The notes below the pieces were generated by a model that did no database searches, was not told the origin of the DNA, and was given only the letters and a program-made list of their open reading frames with translations. From contig JAIXOM010000059.1 of the NCBI GenBank assembly GCA_027486755.1, forward strand, positions 276,454-340,453: 64,000 nt of DNA. The letters run 5' to 3'. Numbering within the stretch: the stretch's first letter is position 1; each line of letters starts with the position of its first letter. Both the position numbers and the translations under genes were made by a program. Origin of the DNA: Comamonadaceae bacterium (GTDB lineage Bacteria; Pseudomonadota; Gammaproteobacteria; Burkholderiales; Burkholderiaceae_C). Below, in pieces: positions 4,442 to 64,000 of the stretch.

Positions 4442-5773
4442 ATGCCCCAAGCCCTGACCGAACAACTCAGCCGCGAGCAACAAGTTGCCGCCCTGGAAAA
4501 AGAATGGGCCAGCAGCCCGCGCTGGAAGGGCGTCAAACGTGGCTACAGCGCCGCCGACGTGGTGCGCCTGCGCGGCAGCATGCCGATCGAGCACACCCTG
4601 GCCAAGCGCGGCGCGGAAAAGCTCTGGGAAAAAATCAACGGGGGTGCCAAGAAGGGCTATGTGAACGCCTTTGGCGCCATCAGCGCTGGCCAGGCCATGC
4701 AGCAGGCCAAGGCCGGTTTGGAGGCGGTGTATCTGTCGGGTTGGCAGGTAGCTGCTGACGGCAATACCTCTGAAACCATGTACCCCGACCAGTCGCTCTA
4801 TGCCTACGACTCGGTGCCCACCATGGTTCGCCGTATCAACAACACCTTCAAGCGCGCTGATGAGATCCAGTGGGGCCGTGGCATCGATCCCGGCAGCAAG
4901 GAGTTCATCGACTACTTCCTGCCCATCGTGGCCGACGGCGAGGCCGGCTTTGGTGGCGTGCTCAATGCGTTTGAGCTGACCAAGAACATGATCACCGCCG
5001 GCGCTGCGGGTGTGCACTTCGAAGACCAGCTGGCCGCCGTCAAAAAATGCGGCCACATGGGTGGCAAGGTCTTGGTGCCCACGCAAGAGGCCATTGAGAA
5101 GCTGCTGTCGGCGCGTTTTGCTGCTGACGTGATGGGCGTGCCCACCGTGGTGCTGGCCCGCACCGATGCCGAGGCCGCCAACTTGCTGACCAGCGACCAC
5201 GACGCCAATGACAAGCCCTTCCTGACCGGCGACCGCACCCAAGAGGGCTTTTACCGCGTCAAAAATGGCCTGGAGCAGGCCATCAGCCGCGGCGTGGCCT
5301 ACGCACCCTATGCCGACCTGGTCTGGTGCGAGACCGGTACGCCCGACCTGGGCTTTGCCCGCGAGTTTGCGCAGGCTGTGCATGCCGCCTGCCCGGGCAA
5401 GCTGCTGTCTTACAACTGCTCGCCCTCCTTCAACTGGAAGAAAAACCTGGACGACGCCACCATCGCCAGGTTCCAAGAAGAGCTGTCAGCGCTGGGCTAC
5501 AAGTACCAGTTCATCACCCTGGCCGGCATCCACATCAACTGGTTCAACACCTTCAAGTTCGCCAAGGCCTATGCCGAGGGCGAGGGCATGAAGCACTACG
5601 TGAACATGGTGCAGGAGCCCGAGTTCGCCGCCCGTGAGCAGGGCTACACCTTCGTGTCGCACCAGCAGGAAGTCGGCGCTGGTTACTTTGACGATGTGAC
5701 CACCGTGATCCAGGGCGGCACGTCTTCAGTCAAGGCCCTGACCGGCTCGACCGAAGAAGAGCAGTTCCACTGA
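4442..5773 (+). CDS. aceA: Isocitrate lyase
   Basis: 443 aa with the ICL catalytic motif [18 protein letters not shown] and [12 protein letters not shown]. Confidence 0.97.
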
Positions 5774-5816
5774 GTTTTGTGCCCCGGCGCCACCCGCGTC
5801 GCTTACGCAAGCACTA

Positions 5817-5842
5817 AGCCCGGGCGATCCCCGGGCTTTTTT
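5817..5842 (+). terminator. Rho-independent terminator after aceA
   Basis: AGCCCGGG-CGATC-CCCGGGCT followed by a T run. Confidence 0.88.
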
Positions 5843-5918
5843 GCGTCCGGTATGCCGGTGCGGTCCCAGCTGTTTGTGAGAAAATTCGTTCAAGTCAACC
5901 CACAAGAGCGAGAAAGGC

Positions 5919-5969
5919 ATGATGGTTATGACACCGCGAACTCCCTCGGAGATCTTGGCGGGCCTTTGA
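5919..5969 (+). CDS. Putative 16-aa thrS leader peptide MMVMTPRTPSEILAGL
   Basis: Short ORF with an upstream AGAAAGG; two Thr codons (ACA 5931, ACT 5940); followed by an antiterminator/terminator pair. Confidence 0.45.
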   Translation: MMVMTPRTPSEILAGL

Positions 5970-6010
5970 TGGCCGGCAGGTCGCGCCTGTCTCTCGCACC
6001 CTCATGAAAG

Positions 6011-6032
6011 CGCGGCCCCTGCCGCGTTTTTT
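6011..6032 (+). terminator. Intrinsic terminator in the thrS leader (candidate attenuator)
   Basis: CGCGGC-CCCT-GCCGCG-TTTTTT, ending 25 nt before the thrS ATG. The 3' arm overlaps CCTGCCG (6018-6024), the reverse complement of CGGCAGG at 5974-5980. Confidence 0.75.
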
Positions 6033-6056
6033 GTTTTTCATCTGCTCATTTCAAAC

Positions 6057-7964
6057 ATGGTCCAAATCACGCTTCCCGACGGTTCCCAGCGTCAATTTCC
6101 CCAGCCGGTGACGGTGGCCGAGGTGGCCGCCTCCATAGGTGCGGGCCTGGCCAAGGCGGCCCTGGGCGGCAAGGTCGACGGCCAACTGGTCGACACCAGC
6201 TTTACGGTGGCGCAAGATGCCAAGCTGTCCATCGTCACTGCCAAGGACGCCGACGGACTGGAATTGATCCGTCACTCCACCGCCCACCTGCTGGCCTACG
6301 CCGTCAAGGAGCTCTTCCCCGAGGCCCAGGTGACCATAGGCCCGGTGATTGAAAACGGCTTTTATTACGACTTCTCCTACAAACGCCCCTTCACGCCCGA
6401 GGACTTGCAGGCCATTGAAAAGCGCATGGCCGAACTTGCGGCCAAGGACGAGCCGGTACTTCGCCGGGTGCTGCCGCGCGACGAAGCGGTGGCTCGTTTC
6501 AAGGCCATGGGCGAGCACTATAAGGCTGAGATCATCGGCTCTATCCCAGCCGACCAAGAGGTCTCGCTCTACCGAGAGGGTGGCTTTGAGGACCTGTGCC
6601 GGGGCCCGCACGTACCCAGCACCGGCAAGCTCAAGCACTTCAAGCTGATGAAGGTGGCTGGCGCCTACTGGCGGGGCGATCATCGCAATGAGATGCTGCA
6701 GCGCGTCTACGGCACCGCCTGGGCCAGCAAAGAGGACCTGCAGCAGTACCTGACTTTGCTGGAAGAGGCCGAAAAGCGCGACCACCGCAAGCTCGGCCGA
6801 GAGCTGGACTTGTTCCACATTGACGACCATGCCCCGGGTCTGGTGTTCTGGCATCCCAAGGGCTGGACGGTGTGGCAAGGCGTGGAGCAGTACATGCGGC
6901 GCGTCTACCAGGACAACGGCTACCAGGAGGTCAAGGGTCCGCAGGTCATCGACAAGACCCTGTGGGAGAAGACCGGACACTGGGACAAGTACCGCGAGAA
7001 CATGTTCACCACCGAGAGCGAAAAGCGCGAGTACGCCCTCAAGCCCATGAATTGTCCGGGTCACATCCTGATCTTCAAGCAGGGCATCAAGAGCTACCGC
7101 GACCTGCCGCTGCGCTACGGCGAGTTCGGCCAGTGCCATCGCAATGAGCCCTCGGGCGGGCTGCACGGCATCATGCGGGTGCGCGGCTTTACCCAGGACG
7201 ACGGCCACATCTTCTGTACCGAAGACCAGATTCAGCCGGAGGTATTGGCCTTCAGCACCTTGCTGCAAAAGGTCTACACCGACTTCGGCTTCAAGCACAT
7301 CATCTACAAGGTCGCCACCCGGCCGGAAAAGCGCATAGGCTCGGACGAGAGCTGGGACAAGGCCGAGCAGGCGTTGATGGACAGCCTCAAGGCCTCGGGC
7401 TGCGAGTTCGAGATCGCTCCGGGCGACGGCGCTTTTTATGGCCCCAAGATCGAGTACACGCTCAAGGACGCGCTGGGCCGCCAGTGGCAGTGCGGCACCA
7501 TACAGGTGGACTTTTCCATGCCCGAGCGGCTCGATGCCGAGTATGTGGGCGAGGACGGCAACCGCCACCGCCCGGTCATGCTGCACCGGGCCATCGTCGG
7601 CAGCATGGAGCGCTTTATCGGCATCCTCATTGAAGAGCACGCCGGCGCTCTGCCGACCTGGCTGGCGCCGGTGCAAATTGCCGTCCTCAACATCACCGAT
7701 GCGCAGGCCGATTACTGTCGGGAAATCGCCAAAACTCTGACAAATCAAGGGCTTAGGGTCGATCTGGACCTGCGAAACGAGAAAATCACGTATAAAATAC
7801 GCGAGCACTCGCTGCAAAAGCCTCCCTACATCCTGGTCGTGGGCGACAAGGAAAAAGCGGCTGGCTCGGTGGCGGTGCGTGCCCGAGGCAATAAGGACCT
7901 GGGTGTGATGTCCCTCGAAGCGTTCTCCGCGCAGATCGCTTCCGACATTGCCAACAAATCCTGA
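6057..7964 (+). CDS. thrS: Threonyl-tRNA synthetase
   Basis: 635 aa with N-terminal TGS domain, class II motifs and zinc ligands ([32 protein letters not shown]). Confidence 0.98.
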
Positions 7965-8061: not shown

Positions 8062-8664
8062 ATCGTTACTGAATTTCGTGACCGTCGCCAACGCGAGGAA
8101 CGCAAGCACCGTCTGAACCGAGAAATCATGGCCCCGGAGGTTCGCCTTATGGGCCCTGACAACGAGCCCATAGGCATTGTCTCCACCATGGAAGCGCTGC
8201 GCTTGGCCGGTGATGCCGATGTGGATCTGGTGGAAATCTCGCCGACCGCAATTCCTCCGGTGTGCCGCCTGATTGACTACGGCAAGTTCAAGTATGCCGA
8301 GCAAAAGCGGGCCGCCGAAGCCAAGTCCAAGCAGAAGGTGATCGAGGTCAAGGAAATTAAATTCCGACCCGGCACCGACGACGGTGACTACAACATCAAG
8401 TTGCGCAATATTCGGCGGTTTCTGGATGAAGGCGATAAGTGCAAGATCACGCTGCGGTTTCGTGGTCGTGAGATTACCCACCAGGAGTTGGGTTTGGCCT
8501 TGTTGGCGCGCATCCGCGATGAGTTGGCTGACAGCATCATCGTCGAGCAGTTTCCCAAGCTCGAAGGTCGGCAGATGATCATGATGATCGCCCCGGGCAA
8601 GAAAAAAGCCGGTGGCGGCAAGGTGGCAGCCCCTGCCGAGGCGGCAGAGACGACCAAGGCCTGA
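8062..8664 (+). CDS. infC: Translation initiation factor IF-3 with an ATC start codon
   Basis: Frame extends upstream of the tracked ATG (8128) as [40 protein letters not shown], the expected IF3 N-terminus; AAGGA lies 8 nt before ATC 8062-8064. Confidence 0.93.
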
Positions 8665-8878: not shown

Positions 8879-9082
8879 ATGCCCAAAATGAAGACCAAGA
8901 GCAGCGCGAAAAAGCGTTTTCGCGTTCGTCCCGGTGGCACCGTCAAGCGCGGTCAAGCCTTCAAGCGTCACATCCTGACCAAGAAGACCACCAAGAACAA
9001 ACGTCACCTGCGCGGTGCGGTCGCTGTCCATGAGACCAATATGGGTCACATGGCGCAGATGCTGCCTGGCATGGGTATTTGA
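8879..9082 (+). CDS. rpmI: 50S ribosomal protein L35
   Basis: [46 protein letters not shown]. Confidence 0.97.
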
Positions 9083-9106: not shown

Positions 9107-9466
9107 ATGCCTCGCGTCAAACGTGGCGTCACCGCCCGCGCTCGTCACAAAAAAGTTCTCGCCCTGGCTAAGGGTTTTCGCGGCCGCCGCGGCAATGTCT
9201 TTCGCGTCGCCAAACAGGCGGTGATGAAGGCGGGCCAATATGCCTACCGTGATCGCCGCACCAAAAAGCGCGTGTTCCGCCAGTTGTGGATCGCCCGTAT
9301 CAATGCGGCCAGCCGTTCATTCGGCATGACCTACAGCCAGTTCGCCAATGGCCTGAAAAAAGCCGGTATCGAAATCGACCGCAAGGTACTTTCCGATCTG
9401 GCCATCCACGACAGCGCCGCCTTTGGCGCCATCGTGGCACAAGCCAAGGCTAGCCTGGCGGCTTGA
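9107..9466 (+). CDS. rplT: 50S ribosomal protein L20
   Basis: [51 protein letters not shown]. Confidence 0.98.
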
Positions 9467-9520
9467 TCCTGCCAGCGCCTGTACCGCCTGTGTCTCGGCA
9501 GGGCGGTGCAGCGGCTCAGC

Positions 9521-9554
9521 GGGCCGGGGCTTGTCAAAGGCTCTGGCCCTTTTT
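9521..9554 (+). terminator. Intrinsic terminator/attenuator between rplT and pheS
   Basis: GGGCCGGGGC-loop-GCTCTGGCCC-TTTTT; 10-bp stem with G-U pairs. Confidence 0.72.
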
Positions 9555-9600
9555 CATGGGCCTGTCATGGCCGTGAATCCCTCCGAAATTTGCACACACC

Positions 9601-10662
9601 ATGAGCTCACAATCGATCCTTGATGATCTGGTCGACCAGGCCCGCAGCAGCTTTGCTCAGGCGCTGAGCCCCGCTGATCTGGAAAACGCAAAAGCTGTCT
9701 TCCTGGGTAAGGCCGGCCGGGTGACCGAGCTCATGAAAGGCCTGGCCGCATTGAGCGTGGACGAGAAGAAGTCCCGCGGCGCGGCCATCAACCAAACCAA
9801 GCAGGCCATTGAGCAGGCCCTGACTGAGCGCCGCCAGGCCCTGGCGCAGGCCGAACTCGATGCCCAACTCAGAGCAGAAGCTTTGGATGTGAGCCTGCCC
9901 GGCCGCCAGCGCATGCCCGGCGGCTTGCATCCGGTCAGTCTGACCATGGAGCGCATTGAAGCCATCTTCGGCTCCATGGGCTTTGATGTGGCTCAGGGCC
10001 CTGAGATCGAGACCGACTGGTTCAATTTCACCGCGCTCAACACGCCTGCCGATCATCCAGCACGCTCGATGCACGACACCTTTTACGTCGAAGGTGGCAC
10101 GCCCGATGAGCCGCATTTGCTGCGCACCCACACCAGCCCGATGCAGATCCGCTACGCAGTGCAGCATGTCAAGAAGCACCGCGCGCTGATCGAGCGGGGC
10201 GAACTCATGCCCGAGATTCGGGTGATCGCGCCCGGCCGTACCTACCGGGTCGACAGCGACGCCACCCATTCGCCGATGTTCCATCAGTGCGAGGGCTTGT
10301 GGATCGGTGAGAACGTGAGCTTCAAGGACCTGAAGGTGGTGTTCACCGATTTCTGCCGCACCTTTTTTGAATCCAAAGACTTGGTGCTGCGTTTTCGGCC
10401 CAGCTTTTTCCCCTTCACCGAGCCCAGCGCCGAAATTGATATCCAGTTCCAGGCTGGGCCCTTGGCTGGACGCTGGCTGGAGGTGGCCGGCTCGGGCCAG
10501 GTGCATCCGAACGTGGTGCGCAACATGGGGTTGGACCCCGAGAAGTACATCGGCTTTGCCTTCGGCATGGGCCCGGATCGCCTGACCATGTTGCGCTATG
10601 GGGTCAATGACCTGCGCCTGTTTTTTGACGGCGACATTCGCTTTCTGGCGCAGTTCAATTGA
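9601..10662 (+). CDS. pheS: Phenylalanyl-tRNA synthetase alpha subunit
   Basis: 353 aa; [23 protein letters not shown] and [14 protein letters not shown] motifs. Confidence 0.98.
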
Positions 10663-10728: not shown

Positions 10729-13155
10729 ATGCAATTTCCCGAGTCCTGGTTGCGCGAGTTTTGCAACCCCGCGCTGTCGACCCAGCAACTGGCTGACACC
10801 CTCACCATGGGAGGGCTAGAGGTTGAGGAGCTTCGCCCGGTTGCGCCTGCCTTCTCCCACATCGTGGTCGGCGAGATACGCGAGGCGGTGCAGCACCCCA
10901 ACGCCGACAAGCTGCGGGTCTGCCAGGTGGATGTGGGGCAGGGCGCCTTGCTGAACATCGTCTGCGGCGCCCCTAACGCCCGGGTCGGCATCCGGGTGCC
11001 CTGCGCGCTGGTGGGCGCGCAGCTGCCGCCCGGCGAGGACGGCAAGCCGTTTGAGATCAAGGTCGGCAAGCTGCGCGGCGTTGAAAGCTACGGCATGCTG
11101 TGTTCGGCCCGCGAGCTCAAACTGTCGGAGGACCATGGCGGCCTGCTCGAGCTGGCCGCCGACGCGCCTTTGGGGCAGGACATCCGGACCCATTTGAATC
11201 TGGATGACACCCTTTTTACCCTCAAGCTCACGCCCAATCTGGCCCACTGCCTGAGCGTGCATGGCGTGGCGCGTGAGCTGTCTGCGCTGACCGGCGCGCC
11301 GCTCAAGCAGCCGCACTTCAAAGCGGTCACGGTGAACGACGACAGCCGGCTGGCGGTGCGCATCAGCGCGCCGGACCTGTGCGGCCGCTTCTCGGGCCGG
11401 GTGATCCGCGGCGTCAATACCCGGGCGGCGACACCGCCCTGGGTGGTCGAGCGTCTGGCCCGCTGTGGTCAGCGCTCGGTCAGCCCGCTGGTCGACATCT
11501 CCAACTATGTGATGTTCGAACTCGGCCGGCCCTCGCACATTTTTGACCTCGACAAGATCCATGGCGGTTTGGACGTGCGCTGGGGCCGTGAGGGTGAGAC
11601 GCTCAAGCTGCTCAACGGCAACACCATCACTGTCGATGGCAAGGTGGGCGTCATCGCTGACGAGGCGCAAGTCGAGTCGCTGGCCGGCATCATGGGTGGC
11701 GACGCTACCGCTGTTTCAGACGAGACCCAGAATGTTTATGTCGAGGCCGCCTTCTGGTGGCCGCGCTCGGTGGCTGGCCGTTCGCGCCGTTTCAATTTTT
11801 CCACCGACGCCGGGCATCGTTTTGAGCGCGGCGTGGATCCCGCCACCACCGTGCAGCACATCGAGCGCATCACCGAACTGGTGCTGGCCATCTGCGGCGG
11901 CGAGCAGACCCGCTGCGGCCCGATCGACGACCAGCAGGTGCAGCTGCCTTCGCCCACACCGGTGACCCTGCGGGTGGCACGGGCGGCCAAGGTGATTGGC
12001 ATGCCTTTGACGCAGGCGCAGTGCGTGGACGCGCTCTCCCGTTTGGGCCTGCCGCTGCAGCAAGGAGATGGCACGATCACAGTGACGCCGCCGAGCTACC
12101 GCTTTGATCTGCAGATCGAGGAAGATCTGATTGAGGAAGTGGTGCGCATGGTCGGCTACGACGCGCTGCCTGAATCCCCGCCGCTGGCCCCCACCAGCGC
12201 GCGGCTGCGGCCCGAGTCCGAACGCAGCTCTTTTGCTTTGCGGCGCAGCCTGGCGGCACTGGGTTACCAGGAAACCATCAACTTCAGCTTTGTGCAGGAG
12301 CGCTGGGAGCATGAGCTGGCGGGCAACCCGAACCCGATCAAGCTGCTCAACCCGATTGCCAGCCCGATGAGCGTGATGCGCTCTTCTTTGATCGGTTCGC
12401 TGCTACAAGTGCTCAAGTTCAACCAGGACCGCAAGGCCGCGCGGGTTCGGGTGTTCGAGCTGGGCCGGGTGTTCCTGCGCGATGCCAGTGTGGCCGGCAG
12501 CGACAGCACCGTGGCGGGTCTGCACCAGCCCATGCGGGTGGCCGGCTTGGCCAGCGGCCCGCTGGAGTCGGCCGGTTGGGCGCAGGAGTCGCGCCTGGTC
12601 GACTTTTTTGACATCAAGGGTGATCTGGAGGCCTTGATGGCACCGGCCCGTGCCGTGTTCGAGCCGGTGTCGCACCCGGCCCTGCATCCAGGGCGCAGCG
12701 CCAGCCTGACCATAGACGGGCAGCGCGTCGGCGTGGTGGGGCAACTCCATCCGCGCTGGCGCCAGGCTTATGAGCTGACGCAAACCCCGGTGCTGTTTGA
12801 GCTGGACCTTGAAGCCCTGCTGCGTCGGCCTGTCCCCGCTTTTGCGGGCGTCAGTCGTCTGCAACCGGTCGAGCGTGACATTGCGGTGATCGTCAGCGAG
12901 TCTGTGACGCATGCGCAGCTGATGGCGCAGGTCCACTCAGCGCCCACCCAGGGCCTGCTGCGCTCTGCAACCCTTTTTGATATTTACCGCGCCAAGGAGG
13001 CGGGTGCTGGCATGGCGCTGGGGGAAAAGAGCCTGGCCGTGCGCCTGGTGCTCAGTGACGAGCAGGCTACACTGACGGAAGAGCAGATTGATCAGGCGGT
13101 GCGCGCGGTGATCGACCGTTTGCAGTCGCAGCTGGGTGCGCGGCTGCGCGCCTGA
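10729..13155 (+). CDS. pheT: Phenylalanyl-tRNA synthetase beta subunit
   Basis: 808 aa with N-terminal tRNA-binding domain, B5 region and C-terminal FDX-ACB domain; follows pheS. Confidence 0.98.
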   Translation: MQFPESWLREFCNPALSTQQLADTLTMGGLEVEELRPVAPAFSHIVVGEIREAVQHPNADKLRVCQVDVGQGALLNIVCGAPNARVGIRVPCALVGAQLPPGEDGKPFEIKVGKLRGVESYGMLCSARELKLSEDHGGLLELAADAPLGQDIRTHLNLDDTLFTLKLTPNLAHCLSVHGVARELSALTGAPLKQPHFKAVTVNDDSRLAVRISAPDLCGRFSGRVIRGVNTRAATPPWVVERLARCGQRSVSPLVDISNYVMFELGRPSHIFDLDKIHGGLDVRWGREGETLKLLNGNTITVDGKVGVIADEAQVESLAGIMGGDATAVSDETQNVYVEAAFWWPRSVAGRSRRFNFSTDAGHRFERGVDPATTVQHIERITELVLAICGGEQTRCGPIDDQQVQLPSPTPVTLRVARAAKVIGMPLTQAQCVDALSRLGLPLQQGDGTITVTPPSYRFDLQIEEDLIEEVVRMVGYDALPESPPLAPTSARLRPESERSSFALRRSLAALGYQETINFSFVQERWEHELAGNPNPIKLLNPIASPMSVMRSSLIGSLLQVLKFNQDRKAARVRVFELGRVFLRDASVAGSDSTVAGLHQPMRVAGLASGPLESAGWAQESRLVDFFDIKGDLEALMAPARAVFEPVSHPALHPGRSASLTIDGQRVGVVGQLHPRWRQAYELTQTPVLFELDLEALLRRPVPAFAGVSRLQPVERDIAVIVSESVTHAQLMAQVHSAPTQGLLRSATLFDIYRAKEAGAGMALGEKSLAVRLVLSDEQATLTEEQIDQAVRAVIDRLQSQLGARLRA

Positions 13156-63884: not shown

Positions 63885-64000
63885 GGGGCTGCATTGGTTT
63901 CGACGTGGGTTCGGACGCGGTGTGGTGCATGTCGAGCTTGGTGTGCTCGTAAATCCTGCCAAAACAAACTAACTGCAAACGACGAACGTTTCGCACTCGC
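63885..64000 (+). ncRNA. ssrA: tmRNA (transfer-messenger RNA), 5' portion, truncated by the window end
   Basis: GGGGCTGCATTGGTTTCGACGTGGGT 5' end; tag reading frame from 63975 GCA AAC GAC GAA CGT TTC GCA CTC GC = ANDERFALA. Confidence 0.93.

Follow-up and report, generated by a model that had tools for sequence, protein, structure and literature searches.

What controls thrS, the gene for threonine--tRNA ligase, in a bacterium of the Comamonadaceae in which a short open reading frame (ORF) and an intrinsic terminator stand directly before the gene? The earlier note on this DNA, a stretch of 64,000 nucleotides referred to here as the window, had proposed an attenuator with a leader peptide containing Thr codons. 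On our analysis thrS is very probably under ribosome-mediated transcription attenuation through such a leader, a reading that draws on an ORF, its Thr enrichment, a terminator and an alternative pairing, all of them evident from sequence comparison. The proposal gains support from the conservation of these four elements across many genera and several families.

The host belongs to the GTDB order Burkholderiales (Betaproteobacteria), and its nearest relatives among the named species of the collection include Polaromonas, Rhodoferax and other Comamonadaceae. According to NCBIfam, thrS occupies positions 6057–7964 on the plus strand, with its ATG at 6057, and is followed by infC (8128–8664), rpmI (8879–9082), rplT (9107–9466), pheS (9601–10662) and pheT (10729–13155). 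On the 5' side of the leader lies aceA, encoding isocitrate lyase (4442–5773; NCBIfam), and a terminator scan placed the aceA terminator at 5816–5838 on the plus strand, where it sets the leader apart from aceA. All parts of the leader described below are likewise on the plus strand. Comparison of the sequences 5' of the leader yielded a candidate extended -10 promoter element, TG-A-GAAAAT, at 5877–5885, as a consensus match only; its counterpart at the equivalent position in relatives is TAAAAT, TAGAAT or TACAAT. A simple promoter scan found no promoter 5' of the leader. Elsewhere in the window, the gap between rplT and pheS, where E. coli has its pheM attenuator, holds a terminator-like GGGCCGGGGC..GGCCC TTTTT at 9520–9555, with no Phe-rich ORF seen, and 63885–64000 holds the first part of a tmRNA gene truncated by the end of the window.

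The leader had originally been described as a 16-codon ORF at 5919–5969 with a plausible ribosome binding site. The ORF is present, with Thr codons ACA at 5931 and ACT at 5940 and the stop codon TGA at 5967–5969, and a Shine-Dalgarno sequence, GAGAAAGG (5910–5917), keeps both its position and its letters across 148 leaders, but the start codon must be moved. The two ATG codons that precede GTT within 5919–5927 are not kept in relatives, in which the conserved part of the leader begins GGTTATGACACCGCGAACT, and the Shine-Dalgarno sequence ends only 1 nt before 5919 as against 10 nt before 5928. We therefore rejected 5919 and placed the start at the third ATG, 5928, giving a leader ORF of 13 codons at 5928–5969 that encodes MTPRTPSEILAGL and is conserved directly 5' of thrS in 148 distinct leaders.

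The ultraconserved core of this leader, the 17-mer GTTATGACACCGCGAAC (5925–5941), was searched for with one mismatch allowed. It turned up in 94 of the 121 family genomes (93 of 120 genera), in 21 of 200 from the order and in 8 of 200 from the phylum. Matches beyond the order carry one mismatch and are chance hits; a backwards control pattern gave about as many. A separate reversed-motif control was uninformative, as it falls inside the conserved GTTCGCGCCTG string. Among the 164 places examined, 157 lie directly 5' of thrS, the 7 others are all mismatched, and every exact match directly precedes thrS. The 17-mer offers a one-line signature for annotating the leader peptide.

The 148 distinct leaders used throughout are the set obtained from the places that precede thrS. 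Because the search pattern covers codons 1–5, the conservation of these codons is in part ascertainment, and the counts that follow use sequence outside the pattern. Beyond codon 5, Thr makes up 297 of 1317 codons (22.6%) in frame, compared with 1.4% and 3.0% of the triplets beyond the motif when the other two frames are read. At codon 6, 70% of the leaders have Thr, and at codon 7, 46%; all four Thr codons occur beyond the core. The median leader has 13 codons, at least three Thr codons are present in 84%, and the number within the family ranges from 2 to 7. Judged by these comparisons, the leader ORF and its Thr enrichment are conserved beyond chance in the family.

A survey anchored on ThrRS alone covered 109 upstream regions from 50 families of the order, 105 of which were usable. 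A Thr-rich short ORF was present in 18 of the 105, with a mean of 1.35 in shuffled sequences and none on the reverse strand. The leaders of distant families are divergent and of the RTTTT type: MSFRTTTTGTLNQG, MFKRTTTTRISR, MQLNRTTTTS, MSCRTTTTRER and MAVRTTTTHP.

Other arrangements were also seen. In many other families of the order (L027, L277, L308 and others) a tRNA-Val gene, with the anticodon GAC by inspection, lies directly 5' of thrS, and no leader ORF is present. Two loci (L337 and L338, from G092:C5 and G137:C13) represent a second, divergent copy of thrS, 57–59% identical to the query, preceded by an ORF that ends TTTTTTSTAT. The alternative helices here are GGCTACCT/AGGTAGCC and GGAGGTAGCC/GGCTGCCTCC, with no visible U-run, and this upstream element is perhaps a translational attenuator. 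The short ORFs MSTTTAQR, MATTRFHC, MSTTSSQR and MSTTPI stand 5' of thrS in Xanthomonadales-like Gammaproteobacteria (L364 and L117–L119), and are possibly an independent Thr leader.

Codons 2–5 of the leader are conserved beyond what an attenuation mechanism needs. Codon identity in the core is 147/148 for ACA, 147/148 for CCG, 143/148 for CGA and 130/148 for ACT, figures that partly reflect ascertainment, with one mismatch allowed. A different explanation would make the element act at the RNA level, the near-invariant GGTTATGACACCGCGAACT being recognised by a protein or an RNA or setting a fixed pause, and the ORF being secondary. Such an explanation would suit the synonymous sites of codons 2–5, which barely vary although the partner segment does, and also the rarity of ACA, CGA and ACT, which account for 4%, 3% and 4% of their codon families in six genes of the window. 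It does not fit the Thr codons beyond the core, which are enriched in frame only and draw on all four codons, nor the distant families that keep Thr-rich leaders without the core, nor the retention of the ORF start, the Shine-Dalgarno sequence and the stop codon, and we regard it as unlikely.

Under attenuation, the core ATG ACA CCG CGA ACT could itself be a functional element, as opposed to a usual run of control codons. The rare codons, and CGA read by tRNA-Arg ACG, i.e. by inosine, could render decoding of the Thr codon that follows highly sensitive to charged tRNA, such that two Thr codons would suffice. We put this forward tentatively and with more doubt than belief. The genome has a tRNA-Arg with the anticodon ACG, and a CGA directly before the first control, or variable, Thr codon is kept in nearly all leaders, even those of distant families; a slow decoding role for this codon is a guess.

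The terminator reported earlier is present at 6006–6032 (-15.9 kcal/mol), with a stem at 6006–6031 and a U-run at 6027–6032. A terminator precedes thrS in 146 of the 148 leaders, a median of 26 nt before the gene, and its usual form is GCGCGG..CCGCGC followed by a U-run. The 5' arm of this terminator is also used by a conserved antiterminator helix, in which GGTCGCGC (5979–5986) pairs with GCGCGGCC (6010–6017). These are the conserved parts of region 2 (5975–5986, with an extension at 5975–5978), the 5' strand of the antiterminator, and of region 3 (6010–6023), its 3' strand, so that the full antiterminator (2:3) of the window is 5975–5986:6010–6023 and the terminator is 3:4. Region 2 is found at the stop codon or immediately 3' of it and can pair either with region 3 or with region 1 (CCGCGAACT, 5934–5942), the segment of the Thr codons, in a 1:2 helix. 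A hairpin at 5961–5974 (GGCC 5961–5964 with GGCC 5971–5974) carries the leader stop codon in its loop and is part of the predicted antiterminator fold; four of its six pairs show compensatory changes in relatives.

The earlier note had assigned the antiterminator to CGGCAGG (5974–5980) and CCTGCCG (6018–6024). These are exact reverse complements, as it stated, and CAGG (5977–5980) can pair with CCTG (5986–5989). The 7-bp helix of the first two segments, however, overlaps the lineage-specific extension, the conserved helix being 5979–5986:6010–6017. The leader ORF is conserved among relatives, while the 5974–5980/6018–6024 pairing is lineage-specific.

The two competing helices have similar median duplex energies, -15.0 kcal/mol for 1:2 and -15.4 kcal/mol for 2:3, and their region 2 segments overlap in 96% of leaders, compared with 70% by chance. 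When the partners were swapped among leaders, a leader's own partner was better by -0.67 kcal/mol for 2:3 (permutation sd 0.17) and by -0.47 kcal/mol for 1:2 (permutation sd 0.18), permutation figures that are not probabilities, since related sequences are not independent and kinship inflates such tests. For region 1 paired directly with the terminator arm (1:3), which was also considered and rejected, own partners held no such advantage. Where a [TC]CGCG anchor is present (103 leaders), the next pair outward of the core switches between G-C (35) and T-A (22) and is paired in 66%, against 43% when permuted, the anchored core itself having been selected by the search.

In a MAFFT alignment of 40 leaders, standard pairs occupy 90% of the cells for 2:3, 88% for 1:2 and 94% for the terminator, far above slid controls, in which the 1:2 helix was at most 60% paired. 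RNAalifold, run on the 40 leaders, predicted the terminator and the core of 1:2 independently, with little covariation. By helix, the terminator shows clear covariation in this alignment, the stop-codon hairpin moderate covariation and the helix cores weak covariation. Formal covariation is modest because the helix cores are nearly invariant.

The swap test and the placement of the stop codon relative to region 2 also bear on a simpler account, in which the terminator serves only the upstream unit, or attenuation is constitutive, and the short ORF feeds ribosomes or is there by chance. Five relatives from the same genus (L006, L008, L009, L010 and L013) have lost the leader ORF and kept the GCGCGG..CCGCGC terminator beside thrS, which favours this account; they also carry a TAAAAT-like box about 30 nt before the terminator. 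But aceA has a terminator of its own, and neither the Thr enrichment nor the results for the stop codon and the partner swaps would be expected, so that we consider this account very unlikely.

Ribosome-mediated attenuation would combine these parts as follows. From a promoter just upstream, RNA polymerase would transcribe the leader ORF, which begins MTPRT and has more Thr codons in most relatives. With ample Thr-tRNA, a ribosome would reach the stop codon and cover region 2, the terminator would form, and transcription would end. When Thr-tRNA is scarce, whether for want of threonine or of ThrRS, the ribosome would stall on the Thr codons and cover region 1. Region 2 would then be free for region 3, the antiterminator would form first, and the polymerase would enter thrS. 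The transcription start, the ribosome positions and the response to Thr-tRNA charging are inferred. If they are as outlined, these Betaproteobacteria probably make more thrS enzyme when charged threonine-tRNA is scarce.

We modelled the ribosome states on the assumption that the ribosome covers 12 nt past the A-site codon, with the stalled state at codon 5. Across the leaders, at equilibrium and ahead of U-run synthesis, the terminator had a mean probability of 0.90 with no ribosome, 0.67 with a stalled ribosome and 0.91 with a ribosome at the stop codon; with a shuffled middle the stalled-state value was 0.79. The window copy gave 0.94, 0.56 and 0.95, respectively. Its antiterminator has a probability of about 1 in transcripts ending at 6018–6024, also without a ribosome; as soon as the 3' arm has been fully transcribed, the terminator beats it at equilibrium. 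Since the antiterminator forms without a ribosome and loses at equilibrium, the switch would have to be kinetic.

The window copy and its nearest relatives have just two Thr codons, the fewest in the family (2 of 13 codons in the window), and the probability of the 1:2 hairpin, which in such an attenuator would bring back termination when the leader is untranslated, is just 0.04 in the window copy, against the 88% of paired cells in the 40 relatives. Having two Thr codons and lacking a clear 1:2 hairpin, this copy is most open to doubt in its sensitivity, and within a well-supported family it may be a weak or partially decayed representative. The earlier view of threonine sensing as the weaker half of the proposal therefore applies to this genome, but not to the family, in which leaders with three or more Thr codons predominate. 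The spread in Thr codon number provides a natural test of the minimum number of control codons for an attenuator.

In E. coli, ThrRS represses thrS translation by binding to a hairpin that forms within the ribosome binding site (PMC3858243), and the gene studied here could in principle be under autogenous control of the same kind, with ThrRS binding an anticodon-like hairpin in the 5' untranslated region. A hairpin signature that fits the E. coli ThrRS operator, GGYC..[CG]GTA..GGTCR, precedes thrS in 13 of 29 other Gammaproteobacteria sampled (L341–L369) and in none of the shuffled sequences, so that the signature of this known mechanism is common among them. The signature is absent, however, from the Burkholderiales examined (0 of 109 surveyed regions and 0 of 148 leaders), and such control leaves unexplained why an in-frame ORF rich in Thr codons and a terminator precede thrS; we hold it to be extremely unlikely here. 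The presence of the operator in other Gammaproteobacteria and its absence in Burkholderiales make it likely, as far as a comparison of signatures can indicate, that the control mechanism of thrS changed between the two, and the difference from E. coli autorepression that had been suggested is upheld. The E. coli operator and the Burkholderiales leader would both control thrS in such a way that supply follows demand, but the operator acts on translation.

The proposed mechanism is of a known kind, that of leader-peptide attenuation in enterobacteria as modelled in PMC1183508. The enterobacterial trp, his and thrABC attenuators combine a short translated ORF, containing codons of the amino acid under control, with 1:2, 2:3 and 3:4 helices that exclude one another and with a terminator before the gene, features also proposed for the thrS leader; the thrS leader differs from them in controlling an aminoacyl-tRNA synthetase and in being short, with 2–7 Thr codons. 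In contrast to the E. coli thr leader, which uses ACC (PMC1183508), it has near-invariant nucleotides at codons 1–5, rare codons among them. The covariance model of the thr operon leader (RF00506) matched neither the window nor ten related loci, no Rfam family matched the window at gathering scores, and no T-box was matched there by Rfam even at a lax threshold. A thrS leader peptide was not found in the open literature searched; an earlier prediction may exist in Lopatovskaya et al. 2010 (Mol Biol 44:128, doi 10.1134/S0026893310010164; cited in PMC4833913), which reportedly compares how operons for amino acids and aminoacyl-tRNAs are attenuated. Within the limits of these checks, the gene, the group of bacteria and the conserved core are new.

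Two other systems bear comparison. The pheM leader of E. coli pheST, a leader peptide with Phe codons located between rplT and pheS, also acts by attenuation; it resembles the thrS leader as an attenuator of a synthetase gene with cognate codons in the same gene cluster, whereas the thrS leader has Thr codons and sits before thrS, at the head of the cluster. The thrS T-box of Firmicutes likewise governs thrS by transcription attenuation in response to tRNA charging, but it binds the tRNA directly and has no leader ORF, unlike the element proposed here. Betaproteobacteria, including Burkholderia, Massilia and relatives of the Comamonadaceae, are thereby pointed to as a group that would use leader-peptide attenuation for an essential tRNA synthetase, and a single gene would be served by different RNA-based sensors: attenuation here, binding of the synthetase in other Gammaproteobacteria and T-boxes in Firmicutes.
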